From Spirochaetota bacterium (GTDB taxonomy: Bacteria; Spirochaetota; Spirochaetia; Treponematales; UBA12059): DNA of 64,000 nucleotides. The stretch covers positions 372,001-436,000 of the forward strand of contig JAKLDN010000003.1 of the NCBI GenBank assembly GCA_022703505.1. The letters run 5' to 3'. The notes beneath the pieces are model-generated. The model had not been told where the DNA came from and did no database searches. It was given only the letters and a program-made list of their open reading frames with translations. The translations under genes were made by a program, and so were the position numbers. Every line of letters begins with the position of its first letter. Position 1 is the stretch's first letter. Shown here one piece after another: positions 53,000 through 54,463 of the stretch.

Positions 53000-53815
53000 C
53001 TAGAGCCGGAAGATCTTCACGAGCTTCTTTTCGGTCTCTCCCTCGATGGAGGCTTCCACCTCCACGAACTTCTCCAGGCCCGAGCCGTGGAGCTTTTCCT
53101 TCAGGAGTTCGTCCAGCTGGAAGACCCCCGCGGAGTTGCTCATGCGGATCTTGATCCAGATCGGCTTGTCCTCCCCGGACAGGATCTCGATCTGCTCGAT
53201 GGAGGCCGCGGACAGGGAGTGGATGTTCACGACCCCCGCCTCGAAGGGTATCCGGGACCGGCCCTTGGTCATGTCCAAGGCGTCCGCCACCCGGACGATC
53301 CCCGCCTCCACAGTCATGGGTCGTCCCTCGCTGCGGTGGGCGATGATGGCGTGCTGGGTCTCCGCGCGGATGACCGTCCGGACGTAGGGAGAGTACAGTC
53401 CGTCCAGCAGTCGGTCGATGATGGGCTGGGCCACGAAGAGGGAGTACTGCTCGTGGTCCGCCCTCTGGATGGACATCCCCAGGTCGTGGAGCAGGGAAGC
53501 CAGGACGACGATGACCTCCGCGTCCGCCTCCGTAAGGCCGTGGTCCCGGACCACGCTGGGTACGACGCCCTTCTCCAGGAGCTGACGGAGCATCTTCAGA
53601 GCTATGTTGGAGACGATCTGGAAGTGGATCGGGCCGTGGTCCGTCATCCCGAGGCGGGTCACGGCGTTCACGTTCATGCAGGTCCACAGGGCGTAGAGCT
53701 CCTCGTCGGCGTTGACTCTCTCGACGATCGTCTTGAGCACGGGATTGTGGCGCACGGGAATGCGGATCTCCACGCGCTGGCCGGGGGCAGTAGACGATTG
53801 TTCCATTTCACTCAT
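53000..53815 (-). CDS. HD-domain phosphohydrolase
   Basis: 271 residues. HD metal site: His in DHGPIHFQ, the HD pair in ASLLHDLGMSI, a histidine in HEQYS, and the last aspartate in VRVADALDMTKGR. Residues about 190-271 form a separate C-terminal domain of alternating strands (VEIEASIEGETEKK-like). HD proteins of this size hydrolyse nucleotides or cyclic dinucleotides; the substrate is not evident. The start is 8 bases after a GATACT box. Divergent from the DUF2239 gene across a 96-base region with a clear operator. Confidence 0.85.
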   Translation of the reverse strand: MSEMEQSSTAPGQRVEIRIPVRHNPVLKTIVERVNADEELYALWTCMNVNAVTRLGMTDHGPIHFQIVSNIALKMLRQLLEKGVVPSVVRDHGLTEADAEVIVVLASLLHDLGMSIQRADHEQYSLFVAQPIIDRLLDGLYSPYVRTVIRAETQHAIIAHRSEGRPMTVEAGIVRVADALDMTKGRSRIPFEAGVVNIHSLSAASIEQIEILSGEDKPIWIKIRMSNSAGVFQLDELLKEKLHGSGLEKFVEVEASIEGETEKKLVKIFRL

Positions 53816-53829: not shown

Positions 53830-53860
53830 GGAAAGCGGAAGTACGGGAAAGCCCTATATT

Positions 53861-53904
53861 TATACCCGGATCTTATTGACAATAAATATACCCGGGTATA
53901 ATAT
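53861..53904 (+). promoter_or_regulatory. Promoter with palindromic operator of the DUF2239 gene
   Basis: -35 TTGACA (53876-53881) with -10 TATAAT (53897-53902, 15-base spacer) or TAATAT (53899-53904, 17-base spacer). ATG 53912 is 7-9 bases on. TATACCCGGGTATA (53887-53900) is a perfect 14-bp palindrome overlapping the -10. Its half TATACCCGG recurs at 53861-53869, exactly 26 bases upstream, on the far side of the -35. Confidence 0.75.
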
Positions 53905-53911
53905 TGCGCCC

Positions 53912-54463
53912 ATGGATACAACCACCTACACGGCCTTCGACGGCCACACCCTCGTGGCTTCCGCCGAGCCCCGGGAAGCCTTACGCTCGATCAAGCGGTA
54001 CCTGGACGGGAAACCGGATCGGGCTGTCCTCATCTTCGACGACGGGTCGGGAGCCCAGATCGACTTCGATTTCCGGGGCACCGAGGAGGACGTGCTGGCC
54101 CGGGCCTACCCGCCCGCCCAGAAGCCGGGCCGAGGCAGGCCCGCACTTGGAGTCGTTTGCGGGGAAGTGTCCCTCCTGCCCCGACACTGGGACTGGCTGA
54201 AGCGGCAGGGAAACAACGCGTCCGCGACACTGCGCCGCCTTGTGGACGACGCAATCCGGAACGAGCCGGCCTCGGCCCGGGCAAAACGTGCGATGGAGGC
54301 CGTGGATCGGGAGATGTGGGCGCTGGCCGGCAATCACCCGGGGTGCGAGGAGGCGTCCCGGGCCCTGTACGCCCGGGATTTCGCGAAGTTCCGCGATCTG
54401 ATCCGCGGCTGGCCTCGGGATGTTTCCTCCCATTTGTCGATGCTCGCGGGGCGGGCAGAATGA
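53912..54463 (+). CDS. DUF2239 family protein
   Basis: 183 residues. Matches the DUF2239 family as I know it: N-terminal TAFDGHTLVAS, LIFDDGSGAQIDFDFRGT, GRGRPALGVV, then the strongly conserved VSLLPRHWDWL and ATLRRLVDDA. The GRGRP AT-hook-like motif and the helical C-terminus, reminiscent of ribbon-helix-helix proteins, suggest DNA binding, but no function is established. A perfect palindrome covers its promoter, so autoregulation is plausible. Leaderless or nearly so. Confidence 0.85.
   Translation: MDTTTYTAFDGHTLVASAEPREALRSIKRYLDGKPDRAVLIFDDGSGAQIDFDFRGTEEDVLARAYPPAQKPGRGRPALGVVCGEVSLLPRHWDWLKRQGNNASATLRRLVDDAIRNEPASARAKRAMEAVDREMWALAGNHPGCEEASRALYARDFAKFRDLIRGWPRDVSSHLSMLAGRAE

Follow-up and report, generated by a model that had tools for sequence, protein, structure and literature searches.

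A promoter-embedded double operator conserved with DUF2239 genes across bacterial phyla points to autoregulation

Introduction

Upstream of a DUF2239 gene in a spirochaete genome, within the 64,000-nucleotide stretch of DNA analysed here (the window), a perfect 14-bp palindrome overlaps the -10 element and part of it recurs on the far side of the -35. Does the DUF2239 protein control its own gene through this site, as the sequence-only reading of the locus proposed, and would it also control the divergent HD-domain gene, as that reading further suggested? In the open-licence literature we found no mention of DUF2239, COG3644 or PF09998, and searches there for the operator strings returned nothing relevant; PF09998 is a family without a described function, and its linkage to an operator is a new element. 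An answer would give a widespread domain of this kind a testable function, that of a sequence-specific autoregulator, together with its exact target sequence.

Results

The features of the locus are as follows.
53000 to 53815, minus strand: gene for an HD-domain protein (PF01966), divergent
53860 to 53875: O1, the upstream operator, TTATACCCGGATCTTA (consensus TNNTAYCCGGRTANNA), abutting the -35; columns 4-19 of alignment A1
53876 to 53881, plus strand: -35 element, TTGACA, between O1 and O2
53886 to 53901: O2, the downstream operator, containing the perfect palindrome TATACCCGGGTATA (53887-53900) and overlapping the -10
53897 to 53902, plus strand: -10 element, TATAAT; the spacer is 15 bp in the window and longer, near 17, in most relatives
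53912 to 54463, plus strand: DUF2239 gene, 183 aa (PF09998, E=7.5e-60)
54128 to 54142, plus strand: GRGRP, an AT-hook-like motif, residues 73-77, with GRP invariant
54161 to 54262, plus strand: most conserved segment, a candidate DNA-binding strand-helix-helix, residues 84-117, from conservation and AF2 helices

The positions first reported for the palindrome, the repeat and the interlaced inverted repeat are correct base for base, and the two promoter elements lie as described. The 9-bp repeat TATACCCGG (53861-53869) is offset by 26 from its counterpart within TATACCCGGGTATA; it had been described as a half-site, and the repeat is indeed there, but across species O1 emerges as a full, if less perfect, operator. 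Likewise, the interlaced pair TATATTTAT (53855-53863) and ATAAATATA (53882-53890) is present to the letter, but it is AT-rich filler that is not conserved even within the genus. Palindromy alone is ordinary here, because 12 perfect palindromes of this length or longer occur in the window. When the 96-bp gap was subjected to 20,000 dinucleotide shuffles, a palindrome of at least 14 bp arose in 3.3% of them, a repeat of at least 9 bp in 6.1% and both together in 0.44%, so that the palindrome and repeat of the window, taken alone, are only mildly improbable and constitute weak evidence. The exact 14-mer, which the sequence-only reading proposed to look for elsewhere, is found at a single place in the 3.66-Mb genome; sequences differing from it at no more than two positions are present, and the three of these that were inspected (L002-L004) look intra-coding. 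On these sequences, we take the significance of the double site to derive from its conservation.

The ATG at 53912 lies about 9 nt past the -10, and there is no Shine-Dalgarno sequence between 53897 and 53914; for these reasons the DUF2239 mRNA probably has no leader, or hardly any. This close arrangement of -10 and ATG is seen in other spirochaetes, in Deinococcus and in Comamonas.

DUF2239 is encoded in 10 of the 99 genomes of the window's order, and all ten carry the double site 5' of the gene, one copy (G012) being degenerate. The family search was also positive in a control genome, that of Caulobacter vibrioides, and a scan of genome contigs with one protein gave only two relatives. Reading towards the gene, TTAYCCGGRTAA is followed by ATTGAC and this by another TTAYCCGGRTAA that merges with the -10. 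Approximately 50 bp are thus conserved 5' of DUF2239, namely the palindrome TWWTAYCCGGRTAWWA (O1), the TTGAC of the -35 and the same palindrome (O2) over the -10, and this block was found at DUF2239 in at least five phyla: Spirochaetota, a Hydrogenedentes-type phylum, Deinococcota, Proteobacteria and that of Paenibacillus. The same arrangement could be read 5' of the gene in the Hydrogenedentes genome L016, in Deinococcus, in alpha- and beta-Proteobacteria and in Paenibacillus, where the Deinococcus, Proteobacteria and Paenibacillus loci, like those of Acinetobacter, were drawn from a plasmid collection. Conservation upstream of orthologues, on which the sequence-only reading had staked its proposal, is therefore what we found on examination, and it extends across phyla.

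Alignment of 23 loci (A1) yields the 16-bp operator TNNTAYCCGGRTANNA, present twice, in which the outer T and A, at symmetric positions, are invariant or nearly so; in the O1 columns T4, A8, C10, C11, G13 and A19 do not vary in the 23 loci; TTGAC is kept in most of the 23, and near-consensus -35 and -10 elements stand at ordinary spacing in most of the promoters. Pairwise identity is 0.51-0.83 inside the block vs 0.24-0.29 outside, the flanks being at random level. O1 and O2 lie 26-29 bp apart across loci, which is no whole number of helical turns, so cooperative binding on the same face is not implied.

The arrangement does vary. In Novosphingobium the second site is degenerate, and homologues on viral contigs mostly keep one recognisable site, at the -10 or beside the -35. 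Only an O2-like site is kept at L093-L096, only an O1-like one at L098, L099, L101 and in Tistrella, and none was seen in the short stretch available for the viral-contig homologue L100; a search of viral contigs with the exact gapped operator pattern gave no match. Acinetobacter (L027:2426-2476, L028:2426-2476) carries variant operators, in which ACCCTGATAA-like repeats stand at a distance of about 19 bp. The Acinetobacter protein is also altered in the strand segment, with LQKKHW for LLPRHW; such a paired change of operator and protein, in one lineage, is suggestive only. In a genus relative (G002; L014:1501-1764) DUF2239 looks like a disrupted gene, with two in-frame stops, yet the operator is intact.

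A sequence-only covariance model built from the 23 sites was run on whole genomes. Among the 99 genomes of the order, every near-full-length match above 22.5 bits lay at DUF2239 in one of the ten genomes that encode it; the 89 genomes without the gene gave at best a 22.1-bit partial match. In the phylum of L016 (68 genomes), the model matched 11 at E<=1e-4, all of them among the 13 that encode DUF2239, and none of the 55 that lack it. The sites in this phylum were located without using the gene, and every one lies at DUF2239; since L016 supplied one training site, this test is nearly independent. One of the two unmatched DUF2239 genomes has the double site by eye, and in the other the gene is cut by a contig end. 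The G103 site, also by eye, precedes what looks like the 5' portion of a DUF2239 gene broken across contigs. Over both phyla, the model matched 21 of 23 genomes with DUF2239 vs 0 of 144 without (Fisher 1e-24, ignoring shared ancestry), and no DUF2239 genome was reported to have a second full site. Each replicon scanned has one location, at DUF2239, except two plasmids (L033 and L034) on which the site is present with no DUF2239 on the same plasmid. Neighbouring genes vary between lineages, no other gene being constant beside DUF2239.

Both exceptions lie before other genes. On a plasmid of Deinococcus sp. KNUC1210 (L033:2001-2428), a full double site precedes a GIY-YIG gene, relatives of which stand divergently beside DUF2239 in Phyllobacterium, Azospirillum and Novosphingobium. 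In Tistrella mobilis (L034:2001-3010), an O1-type site with a -35 precedes an alpha/beta hydrolase gene, whose product is 58% identical to the hydrolase of a DUF2239-DUF1330-hydrolase plasmid locus of Paenibacillus; an operator before a Paenibacillus-like hydrolase in Tistrella fits the expectation for a regulator that acts in trans. DUF2239 is also followed by this hydrolase in Novosphingobium, and in Rhizobium a fragment of it comes after DUF1330. This hydrolase family thus follows DUF2239 or carries its operator in both Bacillota and Alphaproteobacteria (L034:2001-3010; L023:3625-4533; L020:3290-3955; L026:3602-3826). On three further plasmids with hydrolase or GIY-YIG homologues (Klebsiella, Qipengyuania, Janthinobacterium) no site was found. 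In two spirochaetes (G080, G025; L010:1501-2398, L012:1501-2398) one reading frame runs from DUF2239 through an Amidase domain (PF01425), making a natural fusion. Together, these associations are suggestive of a regulator that acts in trans on a small regulon.

The proposed co-control of the HD gene, in contrast, is unsupported: this divergent neighbour was seen only in the window's genus, no promoter was called for it on the minus strand, and a comparison with the ORFs of loci L016-L032 and of 13 spirochaete and Hydrogenedentes-type loci yielded no HD homologue.

The protein itself is a full member of PF09998 (202.3 bits over profile positions 1-182, cut-off 25). The proteins compared are only about 40-60% identical, and conservation is highest in (R)GRP and in EVxLLPRHWxWL..QPGGAS..LRRLVD, a pattern that can also be written GRPxLG..xEVxLLPRHWxWLxxQ....S..LRRLV. 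In an AF2 monomer model (12 sequences, mean pLDDT 80) the N-terminus forms an alpha/beta domain, the linker that contains GRGRP is of low confidence and the C-terminus is helical; the model places helices at 90-98 and 105-116, with a low-confidence segment ahead of them and no strand, although a monomer cannot show a dimer ribbon. Neither Pfam nor NCBIfam gave an RHH match, even at E=10, alignment by hhalign with 12 spirochaete RHH_1 segments was not significant (P=0.03-0.08), and a Foldseek search of solved (PDB) and viral structures returned no match. As neither the sequence searches nor the fold searches tied DUF2239 significantly to any known DNA-binding family, its RHH assignment stays a candidate only; DNA binding by DUF2239 is plausible from the conserved features of the protein.

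Discussion

The double site is real, conserved and linked almost exclusively to DUF2239. An autoregulator would be expected to have its operator in its own promoter, conserved together with its gene, which is the situation found here, and the cross-species comparison argues strongly for autoregulation by DUF2239. We consider it probable that DUF2239 is a DNA-binding autorepressor that binds two copies of one promoter-embedded operator. In our model, the sigma-70 promoter of DUF2239 would contain O1 and O2 as two copies of the operator TWWTAYCCGGRTAWWA, and the protein, probably a dimer or higher oligomer, would bind both. With O1 abutting the -35 and O2 lying over the -10 and the last part of the spacer, occupancy should exclude RNA polymerase, and DUF2239 would thereby repress its own gene; sites that overlap or abut core promoter elements are typical of repression. 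In some lineages, the same operator may serve extra targets (the GIY-YIG gene and the alpha/beta hydrolase), and in some DUF2239 adjoins or is fused with DUF1330, hydrolase or amidase genes, which would give a small, probably inducible regulon whose signal is perhaps a small molecule. We infer DUF2239 as the binder, repression as the effect and the existence of a signal.

Chance would be the simplest alternative, the palindrome and repeat being a feature of an AT-rich promoter or the gene and promoter being merely co-inherited. In its favour, 14-bp palindromes are no rarity in the window, and shuffling gives a joint probability of only 0.44%. However, the site is conserved across phyla despite random flanks and the divergence of the proteins, and co-inheritance with no selection acting would not preserve a block of 50 bp while losing its surroundings. 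We give this reading next to no credence, and the comparative data already exclude it.

That the ACCCGGGT sites are bound by another transcription factor, itself widely conserved, with DUF2239 merely its target, we regard as rather improbable. It would accommodate a DUF2239 protein with no recognised DNA-binding domain, and the sites before the GIY-YIG and hydrolase genes on two plasmids that lack DUF2239. But a conserved factor should act at further genes, its own among them, and none of the DUF2239 genomes was reported to hold another full site; sites would be expected in genomes without DUF2239, of which 0 of 144 has a full one; and no other gene is a constant neighbour of DUF2239. It is also unlikely that DUF2239 binds but mainly activates, or has a ligand-dependent dual role with O1 as activator site and O2 for feedback. 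The place of O1 directly 5' of the -35, and its retention as the sole site in Tistrella, L098, L099 and L101, would suit such a role, whereas near-consensus promoter elements at ordinary spacing in most loci make activation unneeded, O2 on the -10 points to repression, and L093-L096 retain only the O2-like site. We therefore prefer the autorepressor model.

It is unusual for a bacterial transcription factor to have a 50-bp promoter-operator block that recurs across phyla and is present essentially once per genome. More tentatively, and with somewhat less than even confidence, we propose that DUF2239 may represent a new regulator family with an unmatched fold or recognition mode, carried across phyla as a portable promoter-operator cassette and governing a regulon that is small and responsive to a ligand (DUF1330, alpha/beta hydrolase, GIY-YIG, amidase fusions). 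The candidate regulon genes (GIY-YIG, the specific alpha/beta hydrolase, DUF1330 and amidase) might reveal the signal.

Two kinds of known protein invite comparison. AT-hook proteins have an (R)GRP core motif. DUF2239 resembles them in its invariant GRP, which the model puts in a linker of low confidence that is probably disordered, and its operators have W-rich arms. Unlike AT-hook proteins, DUF2239 has a single short motif and no Pfam AT-hook call, and the core recognised at its operators would be the G+C-rich candidate YCCGGR. The second comparison is with RHH autorepressors such as RelB (PMC2812701), MobC of plasmid RA3 (PMC4175270) and MazE6 (PMC9477884). Like these, DUF2239 is small and probably oligomeric, with short operators inside its own promoter, and the expected strand-helix-helix order would fall in its most conserved segment, where the helices are predicted and the strand is not. 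In contrast to RHH proteins, it has no significant RHH profile or fold match, and its architecture differs, with an alpha/beta domain at the N-terminus, a GRP linker and a helical domain at the C-terminus. Two further differences are that no toxin partner is seen and that the DUF2239 operator is conserved across phyla.
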